Source: Flammeovirga pectinis (GTDB lineage: Bacteria; Bacteroidota; Bacteroidia; Cytophagales; Flammeovirgaceae). Taken from it: 64,000 bases of DNA. The notes beneath the pieces are model-generated. The model was not told the origin of the DNA. It did no database searches and worked only from the letters and a program-made list of their open reading frames with translations. The stretch is taken from NCBI RefSeq assembly GCF_003970675.1, contig NZ_CP034562.1:2976001-3040000 (forward strand). The letters run 5' to 3'. Position 1 is the first letter of the stretch. Each line of letters opens with the position of its first letter. Both the position numbers and the translations under genes were made by a program. Positions 53,389 to 62,863 of the stretch are shown here, piece after piece.

Positions 53389-54936
53389 ATGAATAGTAAA
53401 ATAACTCCTGTTTTATCCTTCTTATTAATGGGGCAATTTTTTGTTGGTTGTACTCCACAATCAACCCCAGTTACTGAAGACACTTCTAGTACAAAAATAC
53501 AAAAGATGAAAATGTCTACAGAAATACCTGATGGCATTGAAAGTCCGAATGTAATTAAATCTAAAACATTAGGTGATTTATCTTTTTATGATGGTGTTCC
53601 ATTACCTAATACAGTAGATAAAGTGTATGATTATCTCGATCTAATAAATGCTATTGATGCCTACACAAAAGGTATTCAGTTGGCATCTATGGAAGCTATG
53701 AAACAAGGTATATTATCTTTTGGTCCTGCTAATCAAACAGCATTGCTTTTTGAAGATTTAATGGATTCTAAGGCACTGTTTCTAACAGCGAATACTACTT
53801 CTGTATATATGATGTCGTGGTTAGAACTTGGTGACGAACCTATAGTTATTGAAACTCCTCCTGATGTTTTAGGAATTATAGATGATCATTATTTTAAATA
53901 TGTTGCAGATTTTGGACGTCTAGGTCCAGATAAATCAAAAGGTGGTAAATTTTTAATCTTACCTCCTAATTATAAAGGAAAAGTACCGAAAGGATACTTT
54001 GTAAAACAAGCTAATACATATGGTCATTGGGTTATTTGGAGAGGTTTTCAAAAAAATGGAAGTCCACTACCTGCTATCCAAGACACCAAAAAAACGTATA
54101 AGGTATACCCATTATCTCAAAAGGATAATCCTCCTGCAATGAACTTTGTAAATGTTTCTGGAAAAGAATTCAATACAATTCATAAAATGGACGAAAGAAT
54201 TTATGATGAAATTGATGCAGTGATTCAGGCTGAACCTACTTTTGGAGAAAATCCTGAAATTTTAGGTTCATTAGCAGCTATTGGTATTGAAAAGGGTAAA
54301 AAGTTTGCTCCAGACAATAGAATGAAAGAAATTTTGAAAGAAGCGGCTAAAGTTGGTAGTGCTATTGTTCGTACCGAGATGGCGAAACCAAGAAGTAAGT
54401 ATTTATTCAAATTTCCTAATACACAATGGCTAAATCCGTTGGCCTATAAGAGTTATTTATTTGAACATAATGGGGCTAGATTATTAGATGCTAGAAGTGC
54501 TTTTCATTTTTATGCAACAGGAATTACTCCTGCAATGTCTATGAAAATTGTTGGTAAAGGCTCTCAATACTCTATTGCTTATTCTGATAAAGATGGAAAT
54601 ACTTTTGACGGTAGCAAAACCTATAAATTCCATGTACCAGCTAATCCTCCAATGAAAGATTTCTGGTCGTTTACTATTTATGACAACCAATCTAGATCTA
54701 TGTTACAAACAGATCAAAGATTCCCTGGGATAGATAGTAACCAAAAAGGATTAGTACAAAACAAAGACGGATCTTGGGACATTTTTATTGGTCCTAAAGC
54801 ACCTAAAGGTTTTGAGAAAAACTGGATTCAGACAAATCCTTCTAAAGGATGGAATACAATATTTAGACTTTACGGCCCTTTAGAACCGTGGTTCGAAAAT
54901 AAGTGGTATCCTTCTGATGCAGTTTTAGTAAAATAG
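53389..54936 (+). CDS. DUF1254/DUF1214 lipoprotein
   Basis: A 515-residue lipoprotein with lipobox VGC at Cys21. The N-terminal domain (about 60-200) matches the DUF1254 style, with VDKVYDYLDLINAIDAYTKG and NTTSVYMMSWLELGDEP. The C-terminal domain matches DUF1214, with GSKTYKFHVPANPPMKDFWS, FTIYDNQSRSM, DGSWDIFIGPKAPKG and WNTIFRLYGPLEPWF. These proteins are widespread, beta-rich and of unknown function. The gene is isolated, ending at a good terminator. Confidence 0.85.
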   Translation: MNSKITPVLSFLLMGQFFVGCTPQSTPVTEDTSSTKIQKMKMSTEIPDGIESPNVIKSKTLGDLSFYDGVPLPNTVDKVYDYLDLINAIDAYTKGIQLASMEAMKQGILSFGPANQTALLFEDLMDSKALFLTANTTSVYMMSWLELGDEPIVIETPPDVLGIIDDHYFKYVADFGRLGPDKSKGGKFLILPPNYKGKVPKGYFVKQANTYGHWVIWRGFQKNGSPLPAIQDTKKTYKVYPLSQKDNPPAMNFVNVSGKEFNTIHKMDERIYDEIDAVIQAEPTFGENPEILGSLAAIGIEKGKKFAPDNRMKEILKEAAKVGSAIVRTEMAKPRSKYLFKFPNTQWLNPLAYKSYLFEHNGARLLDARSAFHFYATGITPAMSMKIVGKGSQYSIAYSDKDGNTFDGSKTYKFHVPANPPMKDFWSFTIYDNQSRSMLQTDQRFPGIDSNQKGLVQNKDGSWDIFIGPKAPKGFEKNWIQTNPSKGWNTIFRLYGPLEPWFENKWYPSDAVLVK

Positions 54937-55062: not shown

Positions 55063-56295
55063 TTATTCAAACCTTAATGATTCTATAGGGTCTAATCTAG
55101 ATGCTTTTCTTGCTGGATAATATCCTGAAACTACACCAACACCTACACAGACAAAAATTGAGATTGTTATCCACATCCATGGTAAAACAAAACTCTCAGA
55201 TTCTAAAAATACTGCTATAATATTCCCAATGCCTGCACCTAAAAATGCACCCACTGCTCCGCCTATCAAACAAATAAAAATAGCTTCTAATAAAAACTGT
55301 TGGCGAATAGCTGTTGGAGTTGCACCCATCGCCTTTCTAATACCTATTTCTCTGGTTCTTTCAGTTACAGAAACCATCATTATATTCATCAAGCCAATTG
55401 ATGCTCCTAATAGTGTTACAATCGCAATAGCCAAGCCGCCAATTCTTAAAATAAAAGTCATCTGATCAAATTCACTATTTAAAGAATCATTCCTTTTTAT
55501 TTCAAAAGAATCAGGCTTACCTAACTGGTCTTGGCGAATAATTCTTAAAATACCCCTAGCCTCACTCATTGCATAGTCTAAACCTCTTGGATCTGTTATA
55601 TTAATTGTAGCTGTGTAATTTAATAATTGTTGGGCGGCAAACTTATTTGCATTTAGTAGAGGAATAAAAACTTGCCTATCAGCATCTCCTTCCCCAATTC
55701 CTCCTTTTTCTTCTAAAACACCTATTACTCTATATTTTTTTCCTTTAAAGCCTATAGACTTTTCTATAGGATCTTCGTTCTTATCAAATAATTTTAACCG
55801 AACATCTTTGGCAATAATTGCTACATTCTGACCTTGAGATAATTCTATAGACGAAAAGGATCGTCCATCTTTTAAAGTATAACCATTATTTGACAAGTAC
55901 ATGTCATCAATACCTACAACACCGTAATTTGGTGTAGTTTTCTTAGATAATCTTTTAATTTCCAAAGAACTAGAGATTGGCGTCTGAACACTAATTTTTC
56001 CCTCTACAGGTAATAATTTCTTAAACTTACGCAGTTGCTCGTAAGTAATTGTATTCTTTTTAGATACTTTCCTACCAAACTTACCTCTTCTACGTGTTAA
56101 ATCTGTAATTGTGAAATTACTTACACCTAGATCATCCATTCCAGAATTAATAGAATCCTGAACAGCATCTATGGCAGTCATTATTCCTACTAATGCCATA
56201 ATACCGATAGCAATCATTGCAGAAGTTAGAAAAGACCGAAGTTTATTTGCTTTCACAGAGGTAATTGCCTCTATTATATATGTTATTAAGTACAT
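55063..56295 (-). CDS. MacB/FtsX-type ABC transporter permease
   Basis: A 410-residue permease with the MacB topology: an N-terminal span (FLTSAMIAIGIMALVGIMTA), a periplasmic MacB_PCD domain, then three C-terminal spans of the FtsX domain. The segment VTERTREIGIRKAMGATPTA is diagnostic, and the ending PARKASRLDPIESLRFE fits the family. These act as mechanotransmitters for lipoprotein or peptide export rather than as channels. The matching ATPase and adaptor are not adjacent. The gene is single, ending at the shared terminator. Confidence 0.92.
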   Translation of the reverse strand: MYLITYIIEAITSVKANKLRSFLTSAMIAIGIMALVGIMTAIDAVQDSINSGMDDLGVSNFTITDLTRRRGKFGRKVSKKNTITYEQLRKFKKLLPVEGKISVQTPISSSLEIKRLSKKTTPNYGVVGIDDMYLSNNGYTLKDGRSFSSIELSQGQNVAIIAKDVRLKLFDKNEDPIEKSIGFKGKKYRVIGVLEEKGGIGEGDADRQVFIPLLNANKFAAQQLLNYTATINITDPRGLDYAMSEARGILRIIRQDQLGKPDSFEIKRNDSLNSEFDQMTFILRIGGLAIAIVTLLGASIGLMNIMMVSVTERTREIGIRKAMGATPTAIRQQFLLEAIFICLIGGAVGAFLGAGIGNIIAVFLESESFVLPWMWITISIFVCVGVGVVSGYYPARKASRLDPIESLRFE

Positions 56296-56534
56296 AAGCT
56301 AAATATCAATTCTTAGTATAGTACAATTGTTTATTATCAGTAATTTTTTAATAAAGTTATAAACATTACAATGTAATATTTTCTCAATTTAATTACTTTT
56401 TAGAGTATTTATCCTCTCTAAACAATTGTAACTTAAATATAGTTTAAAAGTTCATACAATTACGTTTACTTTCCTGTTAAACCAAATTGCCATGTCTTTT
56501 ACCCCTATTAACAACAGATAATAACCTATACTTT

Positions 56535-57794
56535 ATGAAATACATTATCTCATTTTACTTCCTAATTTTAACACAGTTGACTTGCTACGGCAACTATATT
56601 CTTGTTCCAATGGACAAAGAACAAAACAACCATCTGAAAGCGTATGGTGTTACGTTCTGGGTATTGGAGCAAGAAATAGAAGCTGAGTGGCTCTTAAACT
56701 ACCGTGGTGGAAGTTTTATGTTTGAAAATGTGGCTCATTTTGAACAAGAGCTTGTTATCCGAGGAATTGACTATTCGATACTCTCTAATGCACAAGCATT
56801 ACAAATAAAAGAAGAAATTGCTCACCCAGAGTCTAATATGGATATCATGAGATTAGATGCGGTACCACGTATTGCTGTTTACTCTCCTCCATCAAAACAA
56901 CCTTGGGATGATGCTGTAACATTAGTATTAACCTACGCAGAAATACCCTATGATGTGATTTTCGATGATGAAGTGATGGCCGACCTCTTACCAAAGTATG
57001 ATTGGCTTCACTTACATCACGAAGATTTTACTGGACAGTACGGAAAATTTTATGCTACCTATGGTAGAGAAGCATGGTATATAGAAGCTCAAAATCAATT
57101 TGAAGAATCTGCTAGAAAGCATGGTTTTGATAAAGTGTCTCATTTAAAAACAGGTGTAGTTAAAAAAATAAGAGATTTTTGTGCTGGCGGTGGCTTCTTA
57201 TTTGCCATGTGTTCTGCTACAGATACTTATGATATAGCATTAGCAGCAGAAGGAATTGATATTATAGATTATATGTATGATGGAGATGGTGTTGACCCCG
57301 ACGTTCATGAAAAATTGAATTATCAGAACACTTTCGCATTTAAAGATTTTAAATTAAAGCTTGATCCTTATCAATATGAATACTCAGAAATTGATAACCA
57401 ATCTTATGAAAGAGGATTAAGAGAAGAAAATGATTTCTTCGAATTGTTTGCCTTTTCAGCAAAATGGGACCCTGTTCCTACAATGCTAACACAAAATCAT
57501 CAAAGACAAATTAAAGGGTTTATGGGGCAAACAACAGCTTTTAAAAAACACTTAATAAAGAGTGATGTAATTATTCTTGGTGATTGTAATTCTGCTAAAG
57601 AAGCTAGGTACATTCACGGTACTTTCGGTAAAGGTACTTGGACATTCTTTGGAGGTCATGACCCTGAAGATTACAGACACTTTGTTGGTGAGGAACCTAC
57701 TGACTTGAATCTGCACCCAAGTTCTCCTGGCTACCGATTAATACTAAATAATATTTTATTTCCGGCAGCTAAGAAGAAAAAACAAAAAACGTGA
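56535..57794 (+). CDS. Secreted GATase-like-fold protein (asparagine synthetase B look-alike)
   Basis: A 419-residue exported protein that starts at the ATG at 56535 with signal peptide MKYIISFYFLILTQLTCYG. The frame open to 56487 adds 16 polar residues and is not supported. The chain PRIAVYSPPSKQPWDDAVTL, DWLHLHHEDFTGQYGKFYAT, CAGGGFLFAMCSATDTYDIA and WTFFGGHDPEDYRHFVG resembles a class I glutamine amidotransferase-like fold. A Cys at the elbow (MCSATDT) could be nucleophilic. Related Bacteroidota proteins carry the name asparagine synthetase B, but no AsnB glutaminase or synthetase motif is present, so that name would mislead. Function unknown. Confidence 0.7.
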   Translation: MKYIISFYFLILTQLTCYGNYILVPMDKEQNNHLKAYGVTFWVLEQEIEAEWLLNYRGGSFMFENVAHFEQELVIRGIDYSILSNAQALQIKEEIAHPESNMDIMRLDAVPRIAVYSPPSKQPWDDAVTLVLTYAEIPYDVIFDDEVMADLLPKYDWLHLHHEDFTGQYGKFYATYGREAWYIEAQNQFEESARKHGFDKVSHLKTGVVKKIRDFCAGGGFLFAMCSATDTYDIALAAEGIDIIDYMYDGDGVDPDVHEKLNYQNTFAFKDFKLKLDPYQYEYSEIDNQSYERGLREENDFFELFAFSAKWDPVPTMLTQNHQRQIKGFMGQTTAFKKHLIKSDVIILGDCNSAKEARYIHGTFGKGTWTFFGGHDPEDYRHFVGEEPTDLNLHPSSPGYRLILNNILFPAAKKKKQKT

Positions 57795-57816: not shown

Positions 57817-57850
57817 AAGGGTTAGAATTTCGGTTCTAACCCTTTATTTT
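57817..57850 (+). terminator. Terminator of the GATase-like gene
   Basis: Arms AAGGGTTAGAA and complement around a 6-base loop, ending in TATTTTTT. Confidence 0.85.
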
Positions 57851-57967: not shown

Positions 57968-58180
57968 TTGGAATTACTGCTCACACTTTTCTTATCTGTA
58001 TTTAAAATATACATTGTCTTAGGAGTACTTTATAGTATTTATTTCTTCATTTGGGGAGCAAAGAAAATCGATCCATTAGTTGCTTCCACAAACAAATCAA
58101 CAAGGATATTATTTATACCTGCAACTATAATTTTATGGCCTTTACTAATCAGTAAAATTAAAAATGACATCAACTCTTAG
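57968..58180 (+). CDS. Small membrane protein, first gene of the Rieske operon
   Basis: A 70-residue protein with two hydrophobic spans (LLLTLFLSVFKIYIVLGVLY and ILFIPATIILWPLLIS). The only usable start is a TTG at 57968, which also sits in a weak promoter-like TTAATTTG, so the start is less certain than most. Its last 17 bases overlap the next gene, which argues that it is translated. No family known. Probably a small subunit or assembly factor of the membrane complex encoded downstream. Confidence 0.6.
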   Translation: MELLLTLFLSVFKIYIVLGVLYSIYFFIWGAKKIDPLVASTNKSTRILFIPATIILWPLLISKIKNDINS

Positions 58181-58526
58181 ACATAATCATTTAATTGTTT
58201 GGATAGCCATTCTTTTCCTTATTCCTATAGGGATTTATTTATCTTCAAGCACATCCGTTTCTTATTTATCTGCTATTACAATTACACAGCCTCTAGAGCA
58301 CCCTGTAACATTTACTATGGACAATGGGCAGTTACATGTTCATGTTATTCAGTCTTATAAAGCTCCTTCTGCTTTATTATATATTATAAACACAAATAAT
58401 CAGAGGGTCTTTTTAGGTGAAATAAGTAGTAGAAATAGATATCATTTTTCGTTACCAAAGAATGCTAATTCAATTTTAGTAATTAACGGTATTAATAAAA
58501 AAACACTCTTCGAATCTAAATTATAA
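58164..58526 (+). CDS. Membrane-anchored exported protein, second gene of the Rieske operon
   Basis: A 120-residue protein with one N-terminal span (HLIVWIAILFLIPIGIYLSS) and a ~90-residue outside domain of beta style (AITITQPLEHPVTFTMDNGQ, LHVHVIQSYKAPSALLYIIN). His residues in the latter (LHVHV) might be ligands. No family known by eye. It overlaps the previous gene by 17 bases and lies 8 bases from the Rieske gene. Confidence 0.65.
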   Translation: MTSTLRHNHLIVWIAILFLIPIGIYLSSSTSVSYLSAITITQPLEHPVTFTMDNGQLHVHVIQSYKAPSALLYIINTNNQRVFLGEISSRNRYHFSLPKNANSILVINGINKKTLFESKL

Positions 58527-58534
58527 GCGCTACA

Positions 58535-59584
58535 ATGTCACATGATTATCAAGCAGTACTTTGGAATCCTCAGAAGAAAAAATATGATCAATTTATCGTT
58601 CTAGGAATTATAATTTACTTAATGTCCTTTGCTGGTTTAACTTTACTTTTTGATAGTAATACCTCATTAGAAACATTAATTATTAGAGCATTTGGTTCTT
58701 TAGCAATCATCTTATTACAACTAATTCTTAGTATCGGTCCTCTTACAAGAATTAATAAAGGTTTTATGCCTTTACTATACAACAGAAGGCACCTTGGCGT
58801 TAGTATGTTTTTAATAGCAACTGTACACGGAGTGTTTTCATTAATACAGTTTCATGCTTTAGGTGATACTTCTATCATTGATTCCCTTTTTAAAGCCAAT
58901 CAAAATTATAATTCAGTTGGCGATTTTCCATTCCAAACATTAGGCTTCTTTGCCTTAATTATTCTTTTTACAATGGCTGCAACTAGTCATGATTTTTGGA
59001 ATGCCAACCTTGGTCCTAGAGTTTGGAAAATAATTCACATGTTCGTTTACCTCGCCTACCTTCTCATTGTATTTCATGTTTTACTAGGAGCTTACCAACA
59101 ACATCATGCAAACTATCTTTTATTTATTGTATGTGTTGGAAGTCTATGGCTAGTTAGTATTCATCTTTATACTGGCTTTTCCGAAGCACAAAGAGATAAA
59201 ACTTCTAATGCTAAATTGGGTAAAATTCAAAACGATGGCTTCTTGTGGGCTTGTACAATAGAAGACATTAATGATAACTGTGCTAAGGTTATTCAACTAG
59301 GTACTGAACGTGTAGCTGTTTTTAAATACGACAATAAAATTGCTGCAGTATCAAATGTCTGTGAACATCAAAATGGCCCTTTAGGAGAAGGAAAAGTAAT
59401 TGATGGCTGTATTACTTGTCCATGGCATGGATATCAATACAAGCCAGAAGATGGACAATCTCCACCTCCTTTTACAGAGAAAATTCATACATATAAAGTT
59501 CGATTAGAAAAGAATAATGTCTACGTTGACCCAACACCTCTTCCTAAAGGTACACCTACTTCACCTGCTATAATTTCTGTTTAA
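58535..59584 (+). CDS. Ferric-reductase-like transmembrane domain fused to a Rieske [2Fe-2S] domain
   Basis: A 349-residue integral membrane redox protein. Residues ~20-215 form six spans of the ferric-reductase/YedZ type. They contain candidate heme-b histidines His86 (NRRHLGVS) and His98 (ATVHGV), and His168 (KIIHMF) and His181 (IVFHVLLG). From about 228 a Rieske domain follows with CEHQNGPLGEG (Cys276, His278) and CPWHGYQY (Cys295, His298), the C-x-H and C-x2-H cluster ligands. The Rieske core faces the same side as the last span would place it, not determined here. The fusion suggests electron flow between heme and a 2Fe-2S centre in one chain. Partners are the flanking genes. Confidence 0.88.
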   Translation: MSHDYQAVLWNPQKKKYDQFIVLGIIIYLMSFAGLTLLFDSNTSLETLIIRAFGSLAIILLQLILSIGPLTRINKGFMPLLYNRRHLGVSMFLIATVHGVFSLIQFHALGDTSIIDSLFKANQNYNSVGDFPFQTLGFFALIILFTMAATSHDFWNANLGPRVWKIIHMFVYLAYLLIVFHVLLGAYQQHHANYLLFIVCVGSLWLVSIHLYTGFSEAQRDKTSNAKLGKIQNDGFLWACTIEDINDNCAKVIQLGTERVAVFKYDNKIAAVSNVCEHQNGPLGEGKVIDGCITCPWHGYQYKPEDGQSPPPFTEKIHTYKVRLEKNNVYVDPTPLPKGTPTSPAIISV

Positions 59585-59586
59585 TT

Positions 59587-60402
59587 ATGAAAGATTTCTA
59601 CATCGGTTACATCAATAAATTACCCAAAAGGTATAAAATAGCATTAAGTATAGGCTTACCTATTTTTTTGATAACACTTATATTCGCAAGTATTATTTTT
59701 AGCACAGAACAAGAACAATTTCAAAATGGCACATTCGAACTTTCTAAGGAAACAACAATAGAAGGTATGCTCTTTCAGAAGCCTGTTCCTATGCTTAAAA
59801 TTGAGGTAGAAAAAGGTTATTTTAAAGATATACTTTTAGTTGATAAAGGTAAGTTTGGTGCTGAAAATAGAATAGCTCATTTACCAAAAAAAGAAGGGTT
59901 GCCTGTTAAAATAAAAGGCCATTTGATTTATTATAATGGACATTCTGTTTTAGAAATTGAAGAAATAAATGCACTCGAAAGCAAGCTTAATTTCCATGCT
60001 TTCAATAACTATCTTGAAGGAATTCATAATACAATAATTGGAGAAATTGTAGATCCTAAATGTTATTTCGGTATCATGAAACCTGGTTTTGGTAAGATTC
60101 ACAGATCATGTGCTATACGATGTATTTCTGGAGGTATACCTGCCGTTTTAGTTCATAGAAATAATGATGGTCTAGAAAGTTATTACATCATAACGAGGAA
60201 AGATGGTACAAAAGACAACAGCGATTTATTTGATCTAATAGGAAAGACTGTTCAGATTCATGCTAAAATAAAAAAAGGTAAAGACTGGAATTTCTTAGAA
60301 TTAGATGATAGATCAAAAAAATTAATTATAAATGAACAAGGCTATTCTTATTACCCTATTACAACTACATTACCAACAGAAACTGTTGTCTGTAAACATT
60401 AG
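59587..60402 (+). CDS. Membrane-anchored protein with a conserved C...H..C...C signature
   Basis: A 271-residue protein, two bases after the Rieske gene. One N-terminal span (about 19-38, IALSIGLPIFLITLIFASII) anchors it. A beta-rich outer region with OB-like elements follows (PVKIKGHLIYYNGHSVLEIE). The striking segment is GEIVDPKCYFGIMKPGFGKI followed by HRSCAIRCISGGIPAV. It places Cys159, His172, Cys175 and Cys179 as a likely metal or cofactor site. I recall the same signature in other uncharacterised bacterial proteins next to Rieske genes, but cannot verify it here. Function unknown. Confidence 0.7.
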   Translation: MKDFYIGYINKLPKRYKIALSIGLPIFLITLIFASIIFSTEQEQFQNGTFELSKETTIEGMLFQKPVPMLKIEVEKGYFKDILLVDKGKFGAENRIAHLPKKEGLPVKIKGHLIYYNGHSVLEIEEINALESKLNFHAFNNYLEGIHNTIIGEIVDPKCYFGIMKPGFGKIHRSCAIRCISGGIPAVLVHRNNDGLESYYIITRKDGTKDNSDLFDLIGKTVQIHAKIKKGKDWNFLELDDRSKKLIINEQGYSYYPITTTLPTETVVCKH

Positions 60403-60420
60403 AAATAATTCAAACCACAT

Positions 60421-60457
60421 AAAAAAGTCCTGCTCAGTATACTGAACAGGACTTTTT
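60421..60457. terminator. Bidirectional terminator after the Rieske operon
   Basis: Arms AAAAAGTCCTG and CAGGACTTTTT, with an inner TCAGTA/TACTGA stem. A-run and T-run sides. It also ends the BatC-like gene. Confidence 0.9.
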
Positions 60458-60513: not shown

Positions 60514-61407
60514 TTACCAATCTGGCTTATTTCTATCGTTCTTATTCGATTTCTTTTTCTTCTGTTGGAAGTACTGCACTTCATTATTTTTAAGTGCATC
60601 TAAAATCATTTGAGCTTGGCTAGCAGGCATTTTTATTTCTTCCATACGCTCATTGAACTGTTGTTGTTCCTGTTCCTGTTCGCGTTGCTCTCGTTCCTCT
60701 TCCGTCTCTTCTCCTTGTTCGCCCTTTTGCTGATCCTGCTGTTCTTGATCTTGTTGCTCCTGATCTTGTTGATCTTCACCTTTCTGATCTTTATTTTGCT
60801 GATCCTGTTGGTCCTGTTGATCTTGCTTATCTTGTTGCTCCTGATCTTGGTCCTCTTTCTCCTGATCTTCCTTATTTTGATCTTTTTCCTGATCTTTATC
60901 CTGCTTGTCTTTATCTTGATCTTTTTGATCTTTATTATCGTCTTTATTTTCTTGATCTTGTTGATCCTGCTCATTTTTTTGCTTTAAAAGCATTTCATAA
61001 TCATAACGAGCAGCTAAATTCTTAGGATCGTGTTTCATTGCTGCCTTTAAGAAAGCAAGAGCAGGTTTTATTTCCTTTGCCTGTGCTTTAATTACACCCA
61101 ATTGTTGGTTAGCAATTGAGGCAATTTTCTTATTTGCAGAATTTTGAATACTTGCATAGCGCTTTGTTGCATTTTCAGCATCTTCAGATAAAAAGTAGGC
61201 ATGCCCAAGATCAAGCATTGCTGCATCATCTTGAATACTCATTGAATCTAAAAGGTAAGTATATTCTTCTATTGCGGTTTTATAATCTTCCGCTTTAAAG
61301 GCAGATTCAGCTGTAGACTTACGTGCGTTAGCCTTGGCAATCTTCCCTATTCCATTGTTATCAGAATATATATTTAATACGATAAGTAGTGATAAAATCG
61401 TATACAT
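60514..61407 (-). CDS. batC: BatC-like TPR aerotolerance protein with a long Asp/Gln/Lys tract
   Basis: A 297-residue exported or membrane-associated protein. After an N-terminal hydrophobic stretch (MYTILSLLIVLNIYS), two or three TPR-like repeats span about 30-140 (ESAFKAEDYKTAIEEYTYLL, LGHAYFLSEDAENATKRYAS, LAFLKAAMKHDPKNLAARYD). Residues ~147-250 are almost only Asp, Gln, Lys and Glu. The C-terminus (MILDALKNNEVQYFQQKKKK and KPDW) is the diagnostic BatC ending. BatC normally follows batA and batB, but here rimO lies upstream, so this copy is detached. The tract is of the kind that expands and contracts. Confidence 0.85.
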   Translation of the reverse strand: MYTILSLLIVLNIYSDNNGIGKIAKANARKSTAESAFKAEDYKTAIEEYTYLLDSMSIQDDAAMLDLGHAYFLSEDAENATKRYASIQNSANKKIASIANQQLGVIKAQAKEIKPALAFLKAAMKHDPKNLAARYDYEMLLKQKNEQDQQDQENKDDNKDQKDQDKDKQDKDQEKDQNKEDQEKEDQDQEQQDKQDQQDQQDQQNKDQKGEDQQDQEQQDQEQQDQQKGEQGEETEEEREQREQEQEQQQFNERMEEIKMPASQAQMILDALKNNEVQYFQQKKKKSNKNDRNKPDW

Positions 61408-61546: not shown

Positions 61547-62863
61547 TTAAACAATCTCGCCATATAAATCAAATGGTTCTGCACTAGTAATCTTGACATT
61601 TGCAAAATCACCTAAACGAACATGATTCTTTTCTTCCACAGGTACTAACACTTCGTTATCTACCTCAGGAGAATCATATTCTGTTCTTCCTACAAAATAA
61701 CCACCTTCAATTTTATCAAATAAAACACGGAATACTTTGCCTACTTTTTCTTGATTAAGCTCAGCAGAAATTTCTTCCTGAATTTGCATAATCTCATCAG
61801 CTCTTTCCTGTTTAACATCTTCTGGAATAGTATCTTCCATGTCATCTCCAGCATGTGTATCTTCTTCATGAGAATAAGTAAATACACCAACACGTTCAAA
61901 ACGCATACGCTCAACAAAGTCTAACATTTCCTCAAACTCTTCTTCTGTTTCACCTGGGTGACCAGTAATTAAAGTTGTACGGATAGCAATGTTAGGAATC
62001 TCAGCACGGATATCGTTAATCAATTGCTCTTGTTTTTCTCTAGATGTACCTCTACGCATACGTTTCAACATTTCTGTAGAACCGTGTTGTAATGGAATAT
62101 CAAGGTAATTAGCAATATTATCACGTTCTTTCATTACATCAATTACATCCATTGGGAAGCCCGTTGGGTAAGCATAATGCAAACGTATCCACTCTAAACC
62201 TTCAACATCTGATAAAGCTCTAAGTAAATCTGCTAAACGTCTCTTTTTATAAATATCAAGACCATAATATGTTAAGTCTTGTGCAATAAGAAGTATCTCT
62301 TTTACCCCTTTAGCAACCATGTCTTCAGCTTGTTTTACCAAATCTTCTATTGGAGTAGAAACATGTTTCCCTCTCATTAAAGGAATTGCACAGAAAGAAC
62401 AAGGGCGGTCACAACCTTCTGCAATCTTAAGGTATCCAAAGTGTTTGTCTGTAGTAAGAAGACGCTCACCTAATAATTCTTTTTTATAATCTGCGTTTAA
62501 AGCTCTCAACAAGTTTGGCACTTCTCTAGTACCAAAGAATGCATCAACTTCAGGAATCTCGTTTACTAAATCTTCTTTATATCTTTCTGATAAACAACCA
62601 GAAACATATACTTTATCAATTAAACCTTCTTTTTTAGCATCTGCATAACGAAGAATCGTTTCAATAGATTCCGTTTTAGCATGCCCAATAAATCCACAAG
62701 TGTTGATTAATACTATATTAAACTTATCATCTTCAGCTTCATGAACTACTTCAATGCCATTACCTTTTAACTGTGTCATAATTACCTCAGAGTCTACAAT
62801 GTTCTTAGAACAACCGAGTGTAATAATATTGACTTTATTTTCTTTAAGTGTCTTGGTTTTCAA
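61547..62863 (-). CDS. rimO: Ribosomal protein S12 methylthiotransferase RimO
   Basis: Adds a methylthio group to an aspartate of ribosomal protein S12, using two [4Fe-4S] clusters. The N-terminal cluster ligands are Cys18 (LGCSKNIVDSE), Cys56 and Cys90. The radical SAM triad is Cys151, Cys155 and Cys158 in GCDRPCSFCAIP. The C-terminal TRAM domain covers about 375-438. The start is a TTG at 62863, giving MKTKTLKENKVNIITLGC, the normal opening for Bacteroidota RimO. No ATG occurs before the first conserved motif. A full promoter lies upstream. Confidence 0.96.
   Translation of the reverse strand: MKTKTLKENKVNIITLGCSKNIVDSEVIMTQLKGNGIEVVHEAEDDKFNIVLINTCGFIGHAKTESIETILRYADAKKEGLIDKVYVSGCLSERYKEDLVNEIPEVDAFFGTREVPNLLRALNADYKKELLGERLLTTDKHFGYLKIAEGCDRPCSFCAIPLMRGKHVSTPIEDLVKQAEDMVAKGVKEILLIAQDLTYYGLDIYKKRRLADLLRALSDVEGLEWIRLHYAYPTGFPMDVIDVMKERDNIANYLDIPLQHGSTEMLKRMRRGTSREKQEQLINDIRAEIPNIAIRTTLITGHPGETEEEFEEMLDFVERMRFERVGVFTYSHEEDTHAGDDMEDTIPEDVKQERADEIMQIQEEISAELNQEKVGKVFRVLFDKIEGGYFVGRTEYDSPEVDNEVLVPVEEKNHVRLGDFANVKITSAEPFDLYGEIV

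Follow-up and report, generated by a model that had tools for sequence, protein, structure and literature searches.

What might be the function of a set of four tightly packed genes in which a ferric-reductase domain (FRD) is fused to a Rieske domain? Such a set occupies positions 57968-60402 of the 64,000-nucleotide stretch of Flammeovirga pectinis DNA analyzed here (contig NZ_CP034562.1, positions 2,976,001 to 3,040,000; hereafter, the window). A first-pass annotation, made from the sequence alone, had described a membrane redox operon and proposed to check whether its genes stay together in other genomes. Its observations were confirmed and its interpretation was partly supported; the answer reached below is a conserved gene set whose products probably carry electrons outward across the membrane. 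The coordinates of the four open reading frames (ORFs) agree with the described packing, that is, an overlap of 17 bases followed by gaps of 8 and 2 bases. The set is referred to as the cassette hereafter, and the three proteins other than the fusion as P1, P2 and P4. The features are as follows.

57968..58180, + strand: P1, a membrane protein of 70 amino acids with a TTG start and, by eye, two hydrophobic stretches
58164..58526, + strand: P2, 120 amino acids, N-terminally anchored
58535..59584, + strand: FRD-Rieske fusion, 349 amino acids, six long helices and then the Rieske domain
58694..59071, + strand: ferric-reductase-type heme membrane domain, fusion residues 54-179 (Pfam), with H181 just past the domain end
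59246..59458, + strand: soluble-ferredoxin-type Rieske [2Fe-2S] domain, fusion residues 238-308 (Pfam), predicted to be cytosolic
59587..60402, + strand: P4, 271 amino acids, an N-terminal helix (residues 14-41) and then two beta barrels of the oligonucleotide/oligosaccharide-binding (OB) type, predicted to lie outside
60061..60123, + strand: Cys/His motif of P4, C159-x12-H172-x2-C175-x3-C179, in its second OB fold

The first-pass annotation had named separate occurrence of the genes in most genomes as a refuting outcome; this was not observed, the fusion and P4 being found together. The window's phylum was sampled with 395 genomes. Thirteen of these, including the window's own, have the fusion, which is split over contig ends in G254 and G356; the other matches listed are Rieske or FRD parts only. 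When a P4 profile was applied to the same 395 genomes, 21 matched: the full P4 is present in the 13 fusion carriers and adjoins the fusion in each (13/13), and the other 8 genomes have the outer domain only. The hypergeometric probability of this co-occurrence, uncorrected for relatedness, is 1.3e-24. In a second sample, centered on genome G405 (record L028, labeled Acidobacteria), the fusion was found in 11 of the 149 genomes of that phylum, G405 included, with the P4 outer domain beside it in all 11. When GTDB species genomes were scanned for the fusion, at least 589 stretches matched, of which at least 570 encode a relative (Rieske-only proteins may be among these relatives), and the best 80 were kept. 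After deduplication, the pooled fetched loci numbered 104. P1 was recognized by hidden Markov model upstream of the fusion at 101/101 distinct loci with a flank of at least 700 bp, P2 at 90 of these 101 (E<1e-3), and P4 downstream of the fusion at 100/100 distinct loci with a flank of at least 850 bp. About 80 of the 104 loci come from the similarity-ranked list, so that these ratios lean to near relatives; the two unranked samples agree with them. An initial count, made without deduplication and under tighter distance limits, had given P1 at 100, P2 at 84 and P4 at 92 of 100 loci, and the five loci inspected under looser limits all have a P4 frame. The median spacings between successive neighbors (− 4, − 1 and 3 bases) are operon-like, and the pairs are at most 60 bases apart in 54/57, 64/66 and 62/72 cases; at L027 and L065, other ORFs lie between the fusion and P4. 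The recurrence of P1 and P4 at every testable locus rejects the view that the arrangement is due to chance or is a local oddity.

The distribution of the cassette is wide and patchy. The records of its carriers are labeled Bacteroidetes, Balneolales, Acidobacteria and Planctomycetota, and Rhizobium also appears among them, R. leguminosarum having its copy on a plasmid; the marine flavobacteria Aquimarina and Dokdonia are carriers as well. Patchiness is suggested by the window's order, in which none of the 14 other genomes listed from the 395-genome sample has the full fusion; the own genome (6.68 Mb in 3 contigs) gave a single match to it. In five Rhizobium plasmids, the fusion is 42-45% and P4 27-29% identical to the window's proteins, and the two Rhizobium regions that were read carry a P1-like gene, a short P2-like gene, the fusion and P4 in this order. 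Near one Rhizobium cassette (L165:12915-15385), proteins annotated as a sigma factor and as members of the DUF1109, NrsF and chlorite dismutase families are encoded, possibly as a stress regulon.

The fusion itself is real. Pfam Ferric_reduct matches residues 54-179 (E 6.3e-16, 59 bits against a cut-off of 28) and Pfam Rieske matches residues 238-308 (E 8.8e-16, 58 bits against a cut-off of 20.3); the protein is thus placed in the FRD superfamily (PF01794) by its curated cut-off and among the Rieske [2Fe-2S] domains by cut-off and by the CxH...CxxH ligands. The first-pass annotation had regarded both the heme histidines and the four Rieske ligands as visible. This holds for the latter: C276, H278, C295 and H298 are invariant in 104/104 aligned rows, among which the window's own copy can occur more than once. 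The heme set, however, is YedZ-like and consists of three histidines, an arginine and an extra histidine. R84, H86, H98, H152, H168 and H181 are invariant over the 104 rows, and H107 is kept in 101/104. R84 stands 14 residues ahead of H98, and H168 and H181 are 13 apart; in the register set by eye from this spacing, without structural superposition, H98, H168 and H181 agree with the histidine triad of the YedZ-type short FRDs, R84 occupies the fourth canonical place, and the extra invariant H86 follows two residues past R84. According to the consulted part of a superfamily survey, YedZ-type short FRDs keep three histidines and have an arginine in the third transmembrane helix (PMC3591440). The four canonical heme histidines of the long-form FRDs are not all present in the fusion, R84 standing at the cytoplasmic place of the third transmembrane helix in 104/104 rows. 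With such YedZ-like ligands two hemes are not assured: the ligand pattern gives good support to one heme and leaves a second one uncertain.

The placement of the Rieske domain was examined with models and charges. In the AlphaFold2 model of the fusion (mean predicted local distance difference test score, pLDDT, 82.4), six long helices precede the Rieske domain. The N-terminus (+ 2), loop 2-3 (+ 4), loop 4-5 (+ 1) and the Rieske side (+ 1) are positively charged, whereas the outer loops have − 2, − 2 and 0, from which the Rieske domain is predicted to lie on the cytosolic side. Its best sequence and structure matches are the Rieske ferredoxins of dioxygenases, which are cytosolic electron carriers. 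Every match that Foldseek listed for the fusion is a Rieske protein, and the heme part is therefore not placed by structure.

The Cys/His signature ascribed to P4 proved genuine: C159, H172, C175 and C179, together with M164, are invariant in 105/105 rows. In its AlphaFold2 model (mean pLDDT 85.2), a single helix is followed by two beta barrels. Structure search relates P4 to OB folds, but it superposes poorly on them as a whole (query-normalised TM about 0.2), and for this reason only the OB fold class is claimed. P4 matches no Pfam or NCBIfam family above cut-off, and none of 29 members gives a Pfam match better than E 0.04. For DUF5818, P4 itself gives no match; three stand-alone relatives match that family with fewer bits than the required 27 (19.6 and 19.3 for the best), over the C-terminal part only, which excludes the motif. 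The invariant residues suggest that the outer domain carries a three-Cys/one-His site, which would either hold a metal or act as a thiol couple. As for the two small proteins, neither P1 nor P2 matches a Pfam or NCBIfam family above cut-off. In P1, G19, D35, P51 and W57 are invariant in 20 aligned rows. The conservation of P2 (15 aligned rows) is found mainly around the membrane helix, at R6, H9, W13 and P21, and also at G85; its outer part is variable, and very short in Rhizobium.

The P4 outer domain is also found alone. It occurs without the fusion in 8/395 genomes of the window's phylum, and it has matches in 55/149 Acidobacteriota genomes, the 11 cassette carriers included. In six aligned stand-alone domain proteins, the C/H/C/C residues are kept and the first spacing is variable. 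Among 30 loci fetched, 8 cassette loci were set aside and 22 stand-alone loci, some of them close relatives, were left. A Cytochrom_C gene adjoins in 5/22, and one further locus (1/22) has a cytochrome c7-type (multiheme) protein and a molybdopterin oxidoreductase; these identities come from nine neighbors chosen by eye and sent to Pfam, of which two remained without a match. The cytochrome neighbors fit an extracytoplasmic redox role of P4-type domains. Small secreted P4-type C/H/C/C proteins beside c-type cytochrome genes are encoded at L168, L173, L175, L182 and L189 in Acidobacteriota. The stand-alone P4-type proteins of L137 and L138 contain Met-rich stretches and are encoded beside a gene that, by eye, is superoxide-dismutase-like.

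The neighborhood of the cassette provides further information. The first-pass annotation had found no neighboring gene linking the operon to a known pathway; this is so in the window, but in relatives three kinds of genes adjoin. Neighborhoods were counted at 59 loci with complete 6-kb flanks, the gene clusters being named from one member each. One is a Rieske domain fused to a thiamine pyrophosphate (TPP) enzyme (Rieske-TPP), present at 39/59 loci; another is a Rieske domain fused to a glutamate-synthase flavin mononucleotide (FMN) domain (Rieske-GltB), at 31/59; the last is an Na+/H+ exchanger, at 33/59. All three are always on the fusion's strand. Both Rieske-TPP and Rieske-GltB were found at 29/59 loci and neither at 18/59. 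A YHS-domain gene (PF04945 in the one member scanned) is found at 16/59 loci, 13 of them on the fusion's strand, and a DUF2721 gene at 15/59, 11 on that strand. The heme, TPP and GltB fusions have homologous Rieske domains. For the TPP part, pyruvate oxidase models come closest, with scores below their cut-offs (426.9 against 742 bits). Of the genomes of 41 of the best 80 loci, 24 contain Rieske-TPP somewhere and 17 lack it; the gene is uninterrupted from its Rieske end onward in 23 of the 24 and split in two in the other. In the 395-genome sample, Rieske-TPP occurs in 10 genomes, 5 of which carry the cassette (p 3.8e-6). Being found in carriers and non-carriers, Rieske-TPP is associated with the cassette and not bound to it.

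Several single cases of these enzymes were also observed. Representative genes are L046:3443-5392 (Rieske fused to the pyruvate-oxidase-like TPP enzyme) and L031:134-1741 (Rieske fused to the glutamate-synthase FMN domain), which often lie not far apart, together with an Na+/H+ exchanger. On a haloarchaeal plasmid (L166:6022-12354), Rieske-TPP lies close to a sodium:proton antiporter and to a glutamate-synthase-related gene with a Rieske domain. The features annotated in the part that was read include no cassette, and these three genes may form a separate module. A second haloarchaeal stretch has a Rieske-bearing TPP gene without antiporter or Rieske-GltB neighbors. At L102:721-1833 (− strand), a Rieske motif is followed, by eye, by a flavodoxin/FMN-reductase-like part; a shorter member of this cluster matched FMN_red.

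Based on these results, we consider it probable that the four proteins form one membrane complex carrying single electrons outward. A cytosolic reductant would reduce the ferredoxin-type Rieske domain, which would pass electrons to a b heme of the MsrQ/YedZ-like membrane domain; the heme would reduce the Cys/His center in the outer OB fold of P4, and P4 would reduce an extracytoplasmic acceptor. P1 and P2 would serve the membrane part as small structural subunits. The parts could indeed carry electrons, as had been proposed; the proposed transfer from the membrane, however, becomes a path through it, since the Rieske domain is predicted to be cytosolic and P4 to be on the far side. Several points weigh against this outward path. 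The arginine stands at the cytoplasm-proximal heme place, so that the route from the Rieske domain to the outer heme depends on H86/H168 or is possibly broken. The fold matches of P4 are mostly DNA- and RNA-binding OB proteins, and its profile has no match at E<=10 among PDB sequences. At 16/22 stand-alone loci, no cytochrome neighbor was recognized by eye in flanks of about 1.5 kb, with the nine neighbors Pfam-scanned. Lastly, Rieske-TPP and Rieske-GltB are both missing from the window's genome, so that neither can be the donor there.

Other readings were weighed beside outward transfer, and their likelihoods are not mutually exclusive. The one that survives best is a special case of it: the membrane part would reduce iron or copper, and P4 would bind or deliver the metal. 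The FRD is described as a ferric/cupric reductase domain in the consulted part of the survey (PMC3591440), and the invariant Cys, His and Met residues of P4, the YHS-domain genes near 16/59 loci and the Met-rich stretches at L137 and L138 are in accord with metal handling. The recurrent clusters scanned with Pfam, several being left unscanned, include no siderophore, TonB-receptor, copper-ATPase or multicopper-oxidase family, and we regard this metal role as possible but not favored. In Bizionia, where iron regulation through MliR has been described (PMC9478572), the 'Rieske' gene cannot be tied to the fusion from the part consulted, and this candidate connection was rejected.

In a wider picture, the cassette would be the membrane port of a "Rieske shuttle": soluble Rieske-fused TPP (pyruvate-oxidase-like) and FMN (glutamate-synthase-like) enzymes would exchange electrons with the fusion Rieske-to-Rieske, the port would link them to a new extracytoplasmic 3Cys-1His OB-fold center, the Na+/H+ exchanger would balance charge, and the bare four-gene form, as in the window, would be the port alone. 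This network is rather doubtful as a whole. The homology of the three Rieske domains and the same-strand occurrence of Rieske-GltB (31/59) and Rieske-TPP (39/59) argue for the opposite direction, as does the normal consumption of electrons by the FMN domain of glutamate synthase: an extracytoplasmic donor such as a c-type cytochrome or a reduced metal would feed P4, the heme, the cytosolic Rieske domain and finally soluble enzymes such as Rieske-GltB. However, MsrQ, NOX and STEAP are FRD proteins that move electrons outward, and carriers without the partner enzymes exist, including the window's genome, 17/41 genomes being without Rieske-TPP. Reductase roles are also ascribed to FRD proteins in the consulted part of the survey (PMC3591440). 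Inward transfer is therefore judged unlikely.

Still less likely is that P4 stands outside the electron path as a cofactor chaperone or assembly factor for the fusion. The OB class includes the heme chaperone CcmE, OB folds are predicted for P4, and its pairing with the fusion is constant; among the best 50 of 565 structure matches of P4, CcmE does not appear. Against such a role, the outer domain occurs without the fusion in 8/395 genomes of the window's phylum and in far more Acidobacteriota genomes (55/149) than the fusion (11). Repair of methionine sulfoxide or disulfides as by MsrPQ, in which the cysteines of P4 would serve as the reductase, is the least likely reading despite an MsrQ-like membrane domain and three invariant outer cysteines, because that domain fails the MsrQ cut-off, the four genes show no match to a molybdoenzyme family, and the P4 motif has an invariant His and is no CxxC.

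Several described systems share features with the set. The membrane domain resembles MsrQ/YedZ in its transmembrane electron transfer and, by the consulted part of the survey, in being an FRD with an arginine in the third transmembrane helix and equivalents of H98, H168 and H181 (PMC3591440); it differs in its fused Rieske domain, in the invariant H86 and in scoring below the NCBIfam MsrQ equivalog cut-off (49.7 against 130 bits). MsrPQ differs further in its molybdoenzyme, to which none of the four genes is similar, the rest of the genome not having been searched for MsrP. MsrQ/YedZ works with a separate flavin reductase. NADPH oxidases and bacterial NOX proteins share an FRD membrane core that moves electrons across the membrane; in the fusion, however, no flavin adenine dinucleotide (FAD)- or NADPH-binding domain was matched, only Ferric_reduct and three Rieske families at E<=1. 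A plain MsrQ or NOX identity is rejected by these cut-offs and missing domains. The Rieske ferredoxins of dioxygenases (BphA3 and CarAc) and NirD have the same Rieske fold and ligands, whereas here the domain is tethered to a heme membrane domain. In flavinylation-linked MsrQ/PepSY-like extracytosolic transfer, a membrane heme protein likewise feeds an outer redox protein, which in the consulted part of that study is a flavinylated domain and not a Cys/His OB-fold protein (PMC11334425); the word 'Rieske' is absent from its main text. The first-pass annotation knew of no described system with this set. No name or description of the four-gene set was found in the open-access literature searched, but the domain pairing itself had been listed: model M4 of the 2013 FRD superfamily survey combines FRD with Rieske, its legend also listing FMN, and the consulted part of the survey assigns to this model neither a function nor a gene set with partner proteins (PMC3591440).

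The surroundings in the window can now be considered. The features that delimit or flank the operon are as follows.

55063-56295: MacB-like permease (named by eye)
57817..57844, + strand: terminator-like hairpin that ends the upstream gene (hairpin scan)
60422..60457, called on the − strand and by eye symmetric: terminator-like hairpin separating P4 from the convergent gene 60514-61407
61547-62863: RimO-like gene (named by eye)

Because terminator-like hairpins lie on both sides, the operon seems to consist of exactly these four genes. A functional tie to the window's own neighbors was rejected, the operon being fenced by the two hairpins; the neighbor ORFs are also absent from the 40 commonest neighbor clusters of the relatives, which counts against such a tie. 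Promoter-like sites number 20 against a mean of 15.2 (standard deviation 4.1), which was not deemed a trustworthy excess. The ORF at 56487-57794 has no Pfam match. On the − strand, 60514-61407 encodes a tetratricopeptide-repeat protein in which a low-complexity run of Gln, Asp, Lys and Glu is very long. A lipoprotein-like DUF1254/DUF1214 protein (Pfam) is encoded at 53389-54936.

Taken together, the locus points to a conserved electron route across the membrane, present in 13/395 and 11/149 sampled genomes of two phyla and without a name in the libraries and literature searched. P1 and P4 are partner families that accompany the fusion at every testable locus, and P4 presents an invariant Cys/His site with neither a Pfam family above cut-off nor a PDB sequence match. 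If the outward path is correct, a Rieske-fed branch would be added to the kind of proteins represented by MsrQ, NOX and STEAP, and the cassette would offer an entry to three homologous Rieske fusions, with heme, TPP and GltB partners, that often travel together.

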